Shown in pieces: positions 4,279 to 63,880 of a stretch of DNA of 64,000 nt; the stretch's first letter is position 1, and the number at the start of each line of letters is the position of its first letter. The notes under the pieces were generated by a model. It saw nothing but the letters and a program-made list of their open reading frames with translations. It did no database searches and had not been told where the DNA came from. This stretch comes from Rhodopseudomonas pseudopalustris. GTDB lineage: Bacteria > Pseudomonadota > Alphaproteobacteria > Rhizobiales > Xanthobacteraceae. Both the position numbers and the translations under genes were made by a program. The stretch lies in contig NZ_FODT01000002.1 in the NCBI RefSeq assembly GCF_900110435.1, positions 434,001-498,000 of the forward strand, given 5' to 3'.

Positions 4279-4344
4279 CAGCCTCACTCCATCGGACGGA
4301 TCGCGGGGCCTTCGGGCCCCGTTGTCGTTCAGGGCGCCTGCTGT

Positions 4345-6410: not shown

Positions 6411-7091
6411 ATGGCTTCTGGATTCTCCGCCTGCCGTCACCTGCCTCGCGCGGCCTTGTTCGCCGCGCTATTGTCGCTGGCTCCTTTTGCCGCGCAGGCG
6501 CAGGCGCCTGACGGATCGCCGAAGACCGCGCCTCCGAAACATCATCCGGAAAAGCCGCTCGATGTGCCGCCGTCGCCGCCGGCCAAGCTTCCGCGCGTCG
6601 GTGGCGATCAGGTCAAGGGTCTGGATTTCCTGTTCGGCGCGCTGAAGGCGGCGCCGGACCAGGCCAGCGCCAAGCATGTCGAGGCGCGGATCTGGGCGCT
6701 GTGGAGCAAGACCCCGAGCGACACTGCCGCGCTGTTGATGGCGCGCTCCAAGGTCGCGGTGGAGGCCAAGCAATACGACGTCGCGGTGAAGCTGCTCGAC
6801 GCCGTGGTCAAGCTCCGGCCGGATTATGTCGAAGGCTGGAATCGCCGCGCCACCATCTTCTATCTGCAGAACAATTATGTCCGCTCGCTCGGCGATATCG
6901 AGCAGGTGCTGATGCGCGAGCCGCGCCATTTCGGCGCGCTGGCCGGCCTCGGCATGATCATGCAGGAGCTGGGCGACGACAAGCGTGCGCTCGAGGCGTT
7001 CCGAAAGGCGTTAGTGGTCAACCCGCATCTCGACAAGCTTCCCGACCTCGTGAAGACGCTGTCGGAAAAGGTCGAAGGCCGCGATATCTGA
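6411..7091 (+). CDS. Periplasmic TPR-repeat protein
   Basis: The 226-residue product has an N-terminal signal sequence (hydrophobic core AALFAALLSLAPF, likely cleavage near AQAQA), a proline/lysine-rich linker to about residue 60, and three helical tetratricopeptide-like repeats from about residue 95 to 215. The clearest motifs are YDVAVKLLDAVVKLRPDYVEGWNRRATIFY and DKRALEAFRKALVVNP. TPRs mediate protein contacts; this one would act in the periplasm. The next gene on the same strand, an alpha/beta hydrolase, begins 43 bases downstream, so co-transcription is likely. No specific partner is evident. Confidence 0.85.
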   Translation: MASGFSACRHLPRAALFAALLSLAPFAAQAQAPDGSPKTAPPKHHPEKPLDVPPSPPAKLPRVGGDQVKGLDFLFGALKAAPDQASAKHVEARIWALWSKTPSDTAALLMARSKVAVEAKQYDVAVKLLDAVVKLRPDYVEGWNRRATIFYLQNNYVRSLGDIEQVLMREPRHFGALAGLGMIMQELGDDKRALEAFRKALVVNPHLDKLPDLVKTLSEKVEGRDI

Positions 7092-60714: not shown

Positions 60715-60820
60715 GTCGATAGCGACCCTCGACATTCGTCTGGAGGCCGTTCGCGGCCTTGCCAAAGAGCCGCGTTGCACCTAGTTTCCGCCCGTTCGCG
60801 GCCAAGCTGCCGCGCCGGAT

Positions 60821-60897
60821 GCAGTTGTAGCTCAGTTGGTTAGAGCGCCTGTCTGTGGAACAGGAGGTCGGTGGTTCGAGCCCACCCAACTGTACCA
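60821..60897 (+). tRNA. tRNA-His (anticodon GTG)
   Basis: The 77-base gene folds into a cloverleaf: acceptor GCAGTTG pairs with CAACTGT (first pair G-U), D-stem GCTC/GAGC, anticodon stem CCTGT/ACAGG with loop CTGTGGA (anticodon GTG), and T-arm GGTGGTTCGAGCCCACC. The discriminator base is A73, the CCA end is encoded, and the usual G-1 is missing, which is the alphaproteobacterial form of tRNA-His. Its 3' 49 bases are duplicated at 62936-62984, marking it as an integration target. Confidence 0.97.
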
Positions 60898-61099
60898 CAA
60901 AATCAACCGCTTAGCGGAACTTAAGTCATACTCCTTCTGCCTGGAACGCACACCGAGCCACACACGTGTGATTTCGTGGGACTGGGAAAACAAACCTGCA
61001 ATCAGACCTAGTGAGCGTGGAAAACACACTCGTAGGATCACGTAAGCTTTACCAAAATCGCTTTGCGGTTGTAGGCTCCCGGCGTCACTGGGGGCAAAA

Positions 61100-62113
61100 A
61101 TGGCTGAAGAAGCACTATTTACGGTCACGAGCGAGGAGGACGCTTGGGCGCTTCTGCGCAATGCGTTGGAGAAGCGCGGAGACATTCCAGATGATCTAGA
61201 GATTGTTTGGAGCGGATGGCCGACCCTGCGCATTTATCTTCCGAACGTGCCGGAGGACGCCACGATCTCCACATCAATGATGTCTGCAATCATCTCTCTA
61301 CAGACATCGATCTATCGAACCCACGCCCTGCTTTCCAAGGGAAACAGCAACCTTCGAACATTGACACAGATTGAGCGAGATCAATTTGAAATTCGCGTTA
61401 AAGTTGAAAAAGGAAGCAGCGATCTCTCGATCAATCTGAATGACATTCTTGCCAAATACGGAAACGAAATCATCGCAAAAATGACCGGTACAGACCTGCT
61501 CATCTTGGTTTTGGGACTTGCCCTAATTTATGCGGGCAAGCTGGCTTTTAGTGATTTTCTCAAATTCAAGAGCGAGCAGCGAAAAGCGGCCTCGGACGAT
61601 CAGAAGACCAAAGGGCTACTCGACACTTTCGAGACATACTTACAGCATGACTCCAAGCGAACTGAATTGCTTTCTAGAGCGCTAGAGGCGGCACCGGTCC
61701 TTAAGCAAATTCAGCAGAGTGCCAATTCGGCCAAGGAGGAACTCGTCAGAGCCGTTGCGGATGAGCGCGGCGGTAAAATTCAAGGCATCGAGTTGCCGAA
61801 GGATGTTGCCAACGAGATTAGCTCCAAAAGCCGAACGCAAAGTTCTGAAGCGCGCAGTGCCGGCCAGTACCGTGTTGCAAAAGTTGATACTACAGTCGCA
61901 AACGGATTCAGAGTAACTCTTGAAGATATAGAGTCCGGTGAGATCGTAACCGCCTCTCTATTCGATGCAATTATCTCGGCTGAACACCGCACCGTGCTTC
62001 AATCCGCTGAATGGAATAAGAAGCCTTTGTTTGTCGAAATGAGTGGTCGCAGGCTCCGCGGAAAGATGGTCGACGCAAAAATTGTGAGTGTTTCGGCTGT
62101 CGAGGATGCGTAA
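61100..62113 (+). CDS. Unknown single-pass membrane protein, island cargo
   Basis: The 337-residue protein MAEEALFTVTSEEDAWALLRN... has no family I recognise. Residues 1-125 form a mixed alpha/beta N-terminal domain (WSGWPTLRIYLPNVPEDATIS, then QTSIYRTHALLSKGNSNLRTL). One transmembrane helix spans about 130-150 (DLLILVLGLALIYAGKLAF). Residues 155-240 are charged and helical, probably coiled coil. Residues 250-337 form a beta-rich domain (YRVAKVDTTVANGFRVTLEDIESGEIVTASLFD ... GRRLRGKMVDAKIVSV). The frame is intact with a normal start, while the adjacent terminase is broken, which suggests it has been kept by selection. A host-protective or phage-related role is possible but unproven. Confidence 0.8.
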   Translation: MAEEALFTVTSEEDAWALLRNALEKRGDIPDDLEIVWSGWPTLRIYLPNVPEDATISTSMMSAIISLQTSIYRTHALLSKGNSNLRTLTQIERDQFEIRVKVEKGSSDLSINLNDILAKYGNEIIAKMTGTDLLILVLGLALIYAGKLAFSDFLKFKSEQRKAASDDQKTKGLLDTFETYLQHDSKRTELLSRALEAAPVLKQIQQSANSAKEELVRAVADERGGKIQGIELPKDVANEISSKSRTQSSEARSAGQYRVAKVDTTVANGFRVTLEDIESGEIVTASLFDAIISAEHRTVLQSAEWNKKPLFVEMSGRRLRGKMVDAKIVSVSAVEDA

Positions 62114-62248
62114 TATTTCAGGACGCCATTTGGCACTAACTTAGAAGCAGCGAAGCGAAATTTCTCTCGCCCGGAACTGGGAACCCGCCGGTACGCTGAG
62201 CCTGTAGCGGAAATGGTGCTGCGCCGTGCGCTGTTCCGACCCGAGGAG

Positions 62249-62771
62249 CTAGTTTATCAGGCGCGGGTGGTCGCGCAGATCGGCCTTTCTGCTGTTGATC
62301 AGAGGCAGGCTGTCCCGATACAGGTCGCTCTTCGGCTTTGCGGCGGCTTCGTAGGTGATGCCGGCCGATCGGAACGCTCCTTGCCCATTCGCCCGCATAG
62401 CGATCTCTGAGGACGTGGGTAATGCCGTAGCTGCGCAGCGTCGCCGCGAACTCCTCCACAACATCATCGGGCGAGAATGGCGGTTTTCGCTCGCGGACCG
62501 CGTCGAAGACGCAGACGCCATTTTCGCGATGCGCGATCGCAAGCGTCATCGAGACTGAAAATCCCCCCGATGGATCGCAGAACGCCGAATAGCAGGCTTC
62601 ATCAACACGGCTCCGCTCGAAAACGCCCGCTGAGACGCAAGCGTCGATCGCAGCGCGGCCGATGACCCGCAGAACGAGGCCGAGCATCCGCTGGTCGAAG
62701 TAGTCCACCTGCTTGCCGGGGGTGGGCCTGAGGTTCCGCCCCCTTTCTTCGGTGAGTCGTTTCCGCGGCAT
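62249..62771 (-). pseudogene. Phage terminase large-subunit remnant, frameshifted and truncated
   Basis: In one frame (from about 62700 down to about 62380) the translation is RAAIDACVSAGVFERSRVDE, then CDPSGGFSVSMTLAIAHRE, VRERKPPFSPDDVVEEFAATLRSYGIT and RDRYAGEWA, the nuclease domain of a terminase-like family. At about 62370-62380 the frame shifts, and the continuation FRSAGITYEAAAKPKSDLYR, then DSLPLINSRKADLRDHPRLI runs in another frame to a TAG at 62249. Both the N-terminal ATPase part and the C-terminal end are missing. The protein cannot be made whole. Confidence 0.8.
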
Positions 62772-63139
62772 CCCATCCTTCGCCTAATGAATGCCTAGGT
62801 AATTTGGGATGGCTGGATGGTGCTACTACAGGTTGATTCTTCATGAGTCGATCGCATCCAGTTGAATATTTGGTTTAAAATCAAAAATTTCGTCGAAGCG
62901 AGCCGAAATGCTACGGCTTTGGCAACTAAAGATTGTGTCTGTGGAACAGGACGTCAGTGGTTCGAGCCCACCCAACTGTACCACTCACCAATCCCCCTTG
63001 ATGTCGTCACAGCCCGGCCGTTGGCCGTGCCGGCACAGCGACGCTCTGATCCGACGTTCGCGCCGACTTCCAAGCCTCCGCCTTTGCCGGAACGAGCACC
63101 CGTGCGCCGCGTTTCCTCCTTATCGAAGATGGAGGCGGC
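62772..63139. other. Intergenic stretch spanning the right end of the island
   Basis: The first 160 bases belong to the island and are AT-richer, without a gene. The 49-base tRNA-His 3' copy occupies 62936-62984. The remaining 155 bases return to chromosomal composition and end with GATGGAGGCGGC, the ribosome-binding site of the next gene. No second tRNA is formed, because the 5' half of the copy is missing. Confidence 0.6.
62936..62984 (+). repeat. Right attachment-site repeat (tRNA-His 3' fragment)
   Basis: TGTCTGTGGAACAGGACGTC and the following TTCGAGCCCACCCAACTGTA plus CCAC repeat the tRNA-His 3' end with two substitutions (G to C, and G to A, in the variable/T-stem region). The anticodon stem 5' half is absent, so it is not a functional tRNA. 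Confidence 0.88.
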
Positions 63140-63355
63140 ATGACCGAGTTCGAACCGGGGGACGACGCGATCGCACTGATGGTCGATGTCGCCCGAACAG
63201 GCGGACGCGATTTGAATGCAGCGCAGCGACGTGACCTAAATCACTTGGTGTCGCGGGGCTTGGTCGCGGTCGACGAGGCGTCGAATAGTTGCGAAGTCAC
63301 GCCGAAGGGACAAGCATTGCTCGATCAGCGAGGGGTCGGCGTCAATGAAGCGTAG
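63140..63355 (+). CDS. Small hypothetical protein, possible winged-helix fold
   Basis: The 71-residue protein MTEFEPGDDAIALMVDVARTGG has helices around residues 8-20 and 27-40 (DLNAAQRRDLNHLVSRGLVAVDEA) and a short strand pair ending VTPKGQALLDQ. The spacing LVSRGLVAV ... VTPKGQALL is like the wing of small winged-helix domains. GGAGG precedes the ATG. Family not recognised. It lies outside the island, beyond the repeat at 62936-62984. Confidence 0.6.
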   Translation: MTEFEPGDDAIALMVDVARTGGRDLNAAQRRDLNHLVSRGLVAVDEASNSCEVTPKGQALLDQRGVGVNEA

Positions 63356-63490: not shown

Positions 63491-63880
63491 ATGAATCAGA
63501 TCATGAACGATGCCGACCACCGAGCCGAGCTCGATCGCCATCTGGCTTGGTTCGAATCCAAATTGCCGGAGAAGCCCGCGAATTTCGTCGGATGGCTGCG
63601 GAAGCCATCATCGAAATACGTTCGTTTGCCGCTCGGGGTGATGCTGGTCGGTGGTGGCGTGCTGAGCTTTCTGCCGGTGCTGGGGTTGTGGATGTTGCCG
63701 CTTGGTCTCGTGCTGATCGCTCAGGATGTGCCGGCGCTGGAGAAGCCGACGGCGCGGACGTTGAGTTGGGTGGAGCGTAAATGGCTCGAACGGCAGCGTC
63801 CCAAGGGTGCCGATACGGAACCTTTCATTCCTGATCAGCACCCGCATAGTGCCTCCGATGACCCGCGGCCGAGGGCCTGA
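63491..63880 (+). CDS. Small membrane protein with two hydrophobic segments
   Basis: The 129-residue protein has a polar N-terminus (DADHRAELDRHLAWFESKLPEKPANFVGWLRKP), a hydrophobic hairpin (LGVMLVGGGVLSFLPVLGLWMLPLGLVLIA, residues about 47-76), then DVPALEKPTARTLSWVERKW and a polar tail. This pattern is a conserved hypothetical family in Rhizobiales, sometimes mislabelled as tryptophan synthase beta. ATG 63491 or 63503 could be the start. Function unknown; it is presumably an inner-membrane protein. Confidence 0.75.
   Translation: MNQIMNDADHRAELDRHLAWFESKLPEKPANFVGWLRKPSSKYVRLPLGVMLVGGGVLSFLPVLGLWMLPLGLVLIAQDVPALEKPTARTLSWVERKWLERQRPKGADTEPFIPDQHPHSASDDPRPRA

Follow-up and report, generated by a model that had tools for sequence, protein, structure and literature searches.

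A decayed element in a tRNA-His gene of Rhodopseudomonas pseudopalustris retains one intact gene, a candidate for phage exclusion

The window, a 64,000-nucleotide stretch of Rhodopseudomonas pseudopalustris DNA (contig NZ_FODT01000002.1, positions 434,001 to 498,000), carries at the 3' end of its tRNA-His gene an inserted element that is a remnant, not a working element, and in which a single gene is still intact. Decayed satellites or small prophages integrated at tRNA genes are a known kind of element, of which this is a further case, and its tRNA footprint is ordinary biology; the interest lies in the cargo gene, a member of the phage protein family PHROG 6191, whose function is unknown in every library searched. 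The best explanation, which we hold to be slightly more probable than not, is that a decayed satellite or small prophage has kept a single-gene phage-exclusion candidate. The features of the locus are as follows (positions are those of the window).

60821..60897, plus strand: intact tRNA-His gene (anticodon GTG; ARAGORN), the integration target
60850..60898, plus strand: proximal 49-nt repeat, attL side, made up of the last 48 nt of tRNA-His and one further base
60899..61099, no strand assigned: left arm of the element, 51% GC, starting with AAAATCAA
61100..62113, plus strand: intact 337-aa gene, PHROG 6191
62136..62771, minus strand: integrase-terminase frame of 211 codons, a putative deletion fusion
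62219..62666, minus strand: terminase large subunit remnant that covers residues 278-427 of the G080 frame, which has 508 residues (tblastn E 5e-36)
62655..62771, minus strand: remnant of a tyrosine-integrase N-terminus, about 39 codons, joined to the terminase piece
62936..62984, plus strand: distal copy of the 49-nt repeat, attR side, agreeing with the proximal one at 47/49 positions
63140..63355, plus strand: 71-aa flank gene, with a winged-helix match below the cut-off
63491..63880, plus strand: 129-aa conserved right-hand flank gene, used as the yardstick for site size in relatives

The tRNA-His gene is the sole tRNA gene detected in the 64-kb window, and two adjacent phasin genes (PF09361; 59600-59983 and 60217-60660) lie directly upstream of it. 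An earlier note on this DNA had reported a 49-base copy of the tRNA 3' end, matching at 47 of 49 bases, 2.1 kb downstream of the intact gene; both copies were confirmed at 60850-60898 and 62936-62984, and the element is thus bordered on both sides by a direct repeat of the tRNA 3' end. A 44-nt repeat pattern, scanned genome-wide with 3 mismatches permitted and two variable positions left open, occurred twice in the 5.27-Mb genome, both times at the tRNA-His locus and with no third copy, and the reversed pattern gave zero matches in the same scan. The possibility, raised in the note, that the repeat also exists elsewhere in the genome was therefore not borne out. When the 2.2-kb stretch was used as the query, three further genomic matches were obtained that covered only tRNA positions, and from this coverage they look like ordinary tRNA homology.

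The same site was compared in relatives from other genomes of the genus, the sample comprising 16 genomes including the window's own. A tRNA-His match together with about 70 bp of upstream flank was present in all 15 other genomes, and the tRNA was identical at 77/77 positions in 15 of the 17 relatives' loci compared, with 97% identity in the remaining two (G009 and G014). The 129-aa flank gene was found in 14 of the 15 other genomes; it was not found in G007, where the contig is short, and in G001 it lies on a separate contig from the tRNA-His match. Five sites were near-empty, with 0.56 kb (G013), 0.67 kb (G003), 0.68 kb (G011), 0.94 kb (G015) and 1.0 kb (G005) between the end of the tRNA match and the 129-aa gene, and at near-empty sites such as that of G013 the 71-aa flank gene adjoins tRNA-His. 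These are the uninterrupted sites that had been predicted for strains without the element. The corresponding distance is 2.6 kb in the window itself, and 1.2 kb in G006, 2.0 kb in G010, 2.1 kb in G004, 4.0 kb in G008, 41 kb in G012 and 70 kb in G002. A search of the 15 other genus genomes did not recover the 337-aa gene, so the same 2.1 kb is not a shared feature of all relatives.

Larger versions with an integrase between the repeats had likewise been anticipated, and they were found in three genomes. G034, of the same family, carries an 11.5-kb element in tRNA-His with a distal repeat of 45 nt (45/45 identical), and the elements of G009 and G014 are 15 kb long, with a distal repeat of 55 nt that matches the tRNA end of the window at 98%; in all three a tyrosine integrase adjoins the distal repeat and reads inward. 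No PF00589 match was found inside the large intervals of G012 (contig C1 1661295-1702291, 41 kb) and G002 (contig C1 2730376-2800159, 70 kb), and these need not therefore be the same kind of element. Two other observations concern the contents of such sites. The G001 site has an open frame of roughly 5,690 codons, which begins 2 kb downstream of tRNA-His and reaches the contig end (L172 2199-19271), possibly encoding a giant secreted or adhesin protein, and the 15-kb element of G014 has sensor-kinase-like and nucleotide-cyclase-like frames beside a transposase-like frame (L040 1829-6402; all by eye).

The junctions of the element were also compared. In the window, AAAATCAA comes immediately 3' of the proximal tRNA repeat, and AAATCAA is also found within a few bases 3' of tRNA-His in G034, G001 and G020, of which the contig of G020 ends soon after and G001 has its giant open frame there. 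AAATCAA was absent from nine near-empty or short sites (G013, G003, G011, G005, G015, G006, G004, G010 and G007), those of G004 and G010 having AAAATC without CAA, and from the position after tRNA-His in three genomes with longer intervals (G012, G002 and G008); G014 and G009 were left out of this comparison because their tRNA end differs. Beyond its distal copy, the window continues with CTCACCAATCCCCC, which resembles CTCAGCAAGACCCCC found straight 3' of the tRNA in G007. The pattern fits a left arm derived from the element and a right flank derived from the host, and 60899..61099 probably served as the attP arm.

The G034 element gives the best view of a larger relative. Between its 45-nt perfect repeats (L042 680-12236) lie genes for an MT-A70 methyltransferase, which matches PADLOC, an HNH-like protein, a head maturation protease, a terminase and an integrase; from the distal repeat inward, the order is integrase, further genes, terminase. 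Capsid, portal and tail families gave no match among the eight G034-element proteins scanned, and the element is likely to be a phage satellite. A phage satellite is expected to have packaging genes without a full virion set, and on this point the window contributes a terminase remnant and G034 an integrase, a terminase and a head protease among the eight proteins scanned. The earlier suggestion of a satellite gains support from the G034 element, but the window element may also have been a defective prophage; decay of a defence island, named in the same note, is still a candidate.

The 211-codon frame of the window is a composite, and is read as a relic rather than a working gene. Its start of about 39 codons resembles tyrosine integrases, with 46% identity to that of G044 (E 1.5e-8) and 53% identity to that of G026 (E 2.3e-7). 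These were the two of five integrases tried that matched the 2.2-kb stretch; those of G034, G076 and G014 gave no match in it at E<=0.1, and the G034 integrase reached 18.9 bits against the 171-nt stretch alone, under the best shuffle. The remnant itself scored 42.4 bits, compared with at most 23.9 bits in 200 base shuffles of the 171-nt stretch searched with the five integrases. From 62666 the frame matches the terminase of G080 (56% over 96 residues; combined E 5e-36), and all four terminases tried matched this remnant, whose reading frame is interrupted both by a shift near 62376 and by an in-frame stop. Two wrong-frame matches appeared in the same permissive search at E 0.002 and 0.005, so that values near 1e-3 are meaningless there. 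Going inward from the distal repeat, the integrase frame (mechanical start codons) is reached after 165 bp in the window, compared with 193 bp for G034 and 142 bp for G014. Because in G034 the integrase is followed by further genes and then the terminase, a single deletion from about integrase codon 40 to about terminase codon 278 would explain the fusion. The terminase remnant of the earlier note is therefore upheld, and its statement that no integrase is left holds for an intact integrase, of which there is none between the repeats, but not for the N-terminal codons, about 39 of which persist at 62771-62655. Integration by a tyrosine recombinase is supported by this remnant together with the repeats and the near-empty sites.

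The 337-aa gene is the intact low-GC gene previously described, with 49.9% GC and 53% GC3 in a window of 65% GC. GC3 is 81-87% for the two phasin genes and a kinase-like gene upstream, 68-71% for the two right-hand flank genes and 64% for the terminase relic. Its product matches the PHROG 6191 profile over its full length (residues 3-335 of 337, E 2.6e-73), and had zero matches at E<=1 in Pfam, NCBIfam and PADLOC 2.0.0 (0 families). The predicted architecture consists of an N-terminal domain (about residues 1-128), a single hydrophobic helix, for which the best stretch of 19 residues is 133-151, a helical linker and a C-terminal OB fold (about 247-337). A hydrophobic segment is present in 29/29 family members; four positive charges follow the helix and two precede it, which leaves the side faced by each domain unsure. 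Many of the OB-fold matches are to proteins that bind no nucleic acid, and a Foldseek search against the PDB returned nothing at E<=0.001. A search of 60800-63000 revealed no sigma-70-like promoter; the gene begins some 200 bp past tRNA-His and might be transcribed from the tRNA promoter. Compared with 23 relatives, the window copy has a best identity of 30%. Alignment A4 has 13 columns that do not vary among its 28 other rows; the window copy retains 6 of these and has lost 7, and of 44 columns conserved at 90% or more in those rows it retains 26, a divergence which means that its function may differ from that of the family or be fading. The residues common to all 29 aligned members are W40, Q68, G105, S106, R245 and G255.

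The family is rare. Among 101 near genomes only two had it, the window's own and that of G028. In wider samples, each with the window's own genome counted in, it was present in 4 of the 385 genomes that stood for the class, 3 of the 397 for the order and 4 of the 398 for the phylum (one weak partial match included for the phylum), and in none of 14 control genomes in the class, order or phylum search. Among 5,426 complete E. coli genomes, 95 had a DNA match to the E. coli copy, all chromosomal, with 9 of them at 99% or above and the other 86 at 60-80%. In a profile-seeded scan, IMG/VR contributed 69 loci and GTDB genomes another 5, a set that is biased because the scan patterns came from four mainly gammaproteobacterial copies; together with 8 others, these 82 loci formed 17 clusters at 85% identity.

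Copies of the gene were found on several kinds of vehicle. One recurrent position is next to a CI/LexA-type repressor on the same strand, as in Moraxella phage Mcat17 (31 bp downstream of the repressor), a 7-kb lambda-like plasmid (70 bp) and a lambdoid prophage (121 bp) of E. coli, whose copies share one cluster, IMG/VR contig L144 (62 bp) and L155, where one small DUF6232 gene separates the two. Another, seen in E. coli prophages and their relatives, is between the Q antiterminator and the lysis genes on the opposite strand, in 4 of 17 clusters (L088/L104, L103, L120 and L135): Q was scanned in L103 and lysis genes in L104 and L120, both were annotated in L088/L089, and L135 was assigned by similarity only. 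Elsewhere the gene follows a major tail gene at a distance of about 1.7 kb (L145 cluster), or it lies 1.6 kb from an Rz-like spanin (L161), next to a recombinase on a phage-gene-bearing plasmid of Syntrophotalea, and between a virion-morphogenesis gene and an I-type protease in a Mu-like prophage (G1082), which G941 resembles by eye, with a neighbour that lacks a Pfam match.

IS1595 transposons form a further vehicle. In G653, inverted repeats at 7010-7035 and 10438-10463 of L169 enclose the PHROG 6191 gene, a DUF3800 gene and the transposase, and the exact 8-bp duplication GAGAGGCG stands at both sides; in G278 only the transposase and the PHROG 6191 gene lie between ends at 4300 and 6468 of L167 (18/24 complementary), flanked by the exact 8-bp duplication CGCAAGCG. 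Duplications of 8 bp are typical of IS1595. In G028 an IS1595 transposase abuts the gene, and no clean transposon ends were found there. A transposase model built from these three genomes detected IS1595 in those three only among 91 sources searched, and the ranges scanned at the window locus held no IS1595 transposase, inverted repeats or 8-bp duplication. No vehicle was recognised for the copies in G115, G764, L143, L159, L162 and a Vibrio plasmid; the G446 copy is near an AAA/TniB-like gene. Ten proteins were scanned against PADLOC (seven neighbours from five loci, two G034-element proteins and PdpSau), and the only matches were the G034 methyltransferase and a candidate defence gene, PDC-S20/PifA-like (E 1.7e-115), beside the Diaphorobacter copy (L163), so that a known defence neighbour was seen in one of five neighbourhoods. 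Accessory positions in unrelated phages and in IS1595 transposons make the PHROG 6191 gene a free-moving accessory ('moron') gene.

Taken together, the repeats, near-empty sites and integrase and terminase remnants show that an integrase-bearing satellite or small prophage entered the 3' end of tRNA-His. The deletion suggested by the fusion would then have cost the element its genes for mobility and packaging and immobilised what was left, with one cargo gene of PHROG 6191 as the sole intact survivor. That gene most likely protects the lysogen or host against other phages. Its product may sit in the inner membrane, held there by the single helix, with the OB-fold domain binding a nucleic-acid or protein product of the incoming phage, and may then halt phage replication or break the membrane barrier, as reported for PdpSau (PMC10127798). 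Anti-phage activity of the family we regard as evenly balanced; the specific membrane and OB-fold mechanism, drawn by analogy, is rather doubtful.

A chance or dispersed tRNA-derived repeat, with no element ever inserted, could be imagined because motifs are shared among tRNA genes, but we regard this reading as refuted and give it practically no weight: the pattern occurs only twice, relatives have near-empty sites, integrase-bearing elements lie between equivalent repeats in G034, G009 and G014, and integrase and terminase remnants lie between the copies. It is also possible, though clearly less than probable, that the 2.1 kb is an ordinary defective prophage relic and the 337-aa gene a still undecayed leftover that serves no function in the host. 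Both recognisable neighbouring element genes are broken, GC3 of the gene is low, the copy has lost over half of the otherwise invariant residues (7/13), and the G034 element holds head and terminase genes, all of which speak for this reading. The 337-codon frame is nevertheless intact, next to a terminase piece in which 450 bp contain both a frameshift and a stop, and its match to the family profile still spans the full length.

A role in lysogenic conversion, in which the cargo would act on lysis timing, the host membrane or stress survival and not in phage exclusion, is unlikely in our judgement. The position between Q and the lysis genes, where lysis and host-benefit genes also sit, the nearby spanin in L161 and the predicted membrane helix are all consistent with it. 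However, the annotated E. coli copies are on the strand opposite the lysis genes, relatives also lie beside CI and among Mu-like head genes, and others travel in IS1595 transposons, which have no lysis programme. Two general considerations count against exclusion: morons also comprise virulence, lysis-control and metabolic genes, and OB folds are common. We continue to favour a decayed satellite or small prophage with a phage-exclusion candidate, since a family of unknown function on several unrelated mobile vehicles, often as the lone accessory gene, has the look expected of an overlooked defence gene, and PHROG 6191 is missing from the defence library searched (PADLOC). In its fullest form, this proposal sees PHROG 6191 as an undescribed single-gene anti-phage family, with a membrane-anchored OB fold and a new N-terminal sensor domain, passed around among lambdoid and Mu-like prophages, phage-plasmids, satellites and IS1595 transposons, with the window copy as the only gene that a dead satellite has kept at a tRNA-His hotspot; we put this at somewhat below an even chance. 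If the gene is protective, a compact membrane/OB-fold system would be added for Gram-negative hosts, IS1595 transposons would be carriers of defence cargo, and a dead satellite would have left a protective gene behind.

Several known systems offer comparisons. For tRNA-integrated phage satellites, the points of comparison are tRNA 3'-end repeats, an integrase next to the distal one and a terminase; relative to these, the window element has shrunk to 2.1 kb and both its integrase and its terminase are broken. IS1595 transposons can carry passengers, and two of them (G653 and G278) hold a PHROG 6191 gene, whereas the window locus is without transposase or matching ends. The lambda rexAB genes sit directly downstream of the CI-type repressor, and several PHROG 6191 relatives share this place directly 3' of such a repressor; the likeness is one of position, rexAB being two genes and PHROG 6191 one. 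Compared with PHROG 6191 as a phage protein family, the window copy is solitary as well as divergent: no further phage gene, and neither a repressor nor an integrase in intact form, was recognised between the repeats. The closest functional parallel is with PdpSau and the lactococcal abortive-infection protein AbiP. As described in PMC10127798, pdpSau is an accessory gene of Staphylococcus prophages adjoining holin and amidase, and its product is membrane-anchored through an N-terminal helix (residues 5-27) and has an OB-like region; in infected cells phage DNA replication stops and membrane polarity and permeability are altered, and its authors liken it to AbiP, cited as membrane-anchored and nucleic-acid-binding. 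A single membrane helix and an OB fold are shared with the 337-aa protein, where both are predicted; the helix of PdpSau is N-terminal in that account, while in the 337-aa protein a domain of about 128 residues precedes it. An hhalign comparison with PdpSau gave a probability of 0.1% over 20 columns, that is, no detectable sequence homology, and PHROG 6191 was not assigned to the AbiP/PdpSau-like proteins despite the helix and OB fold. The claim is thus that PHROG 6191 works like these proteins, not that it is one of them: the cargo family behaves like an overlooked defence or exclusion gene.
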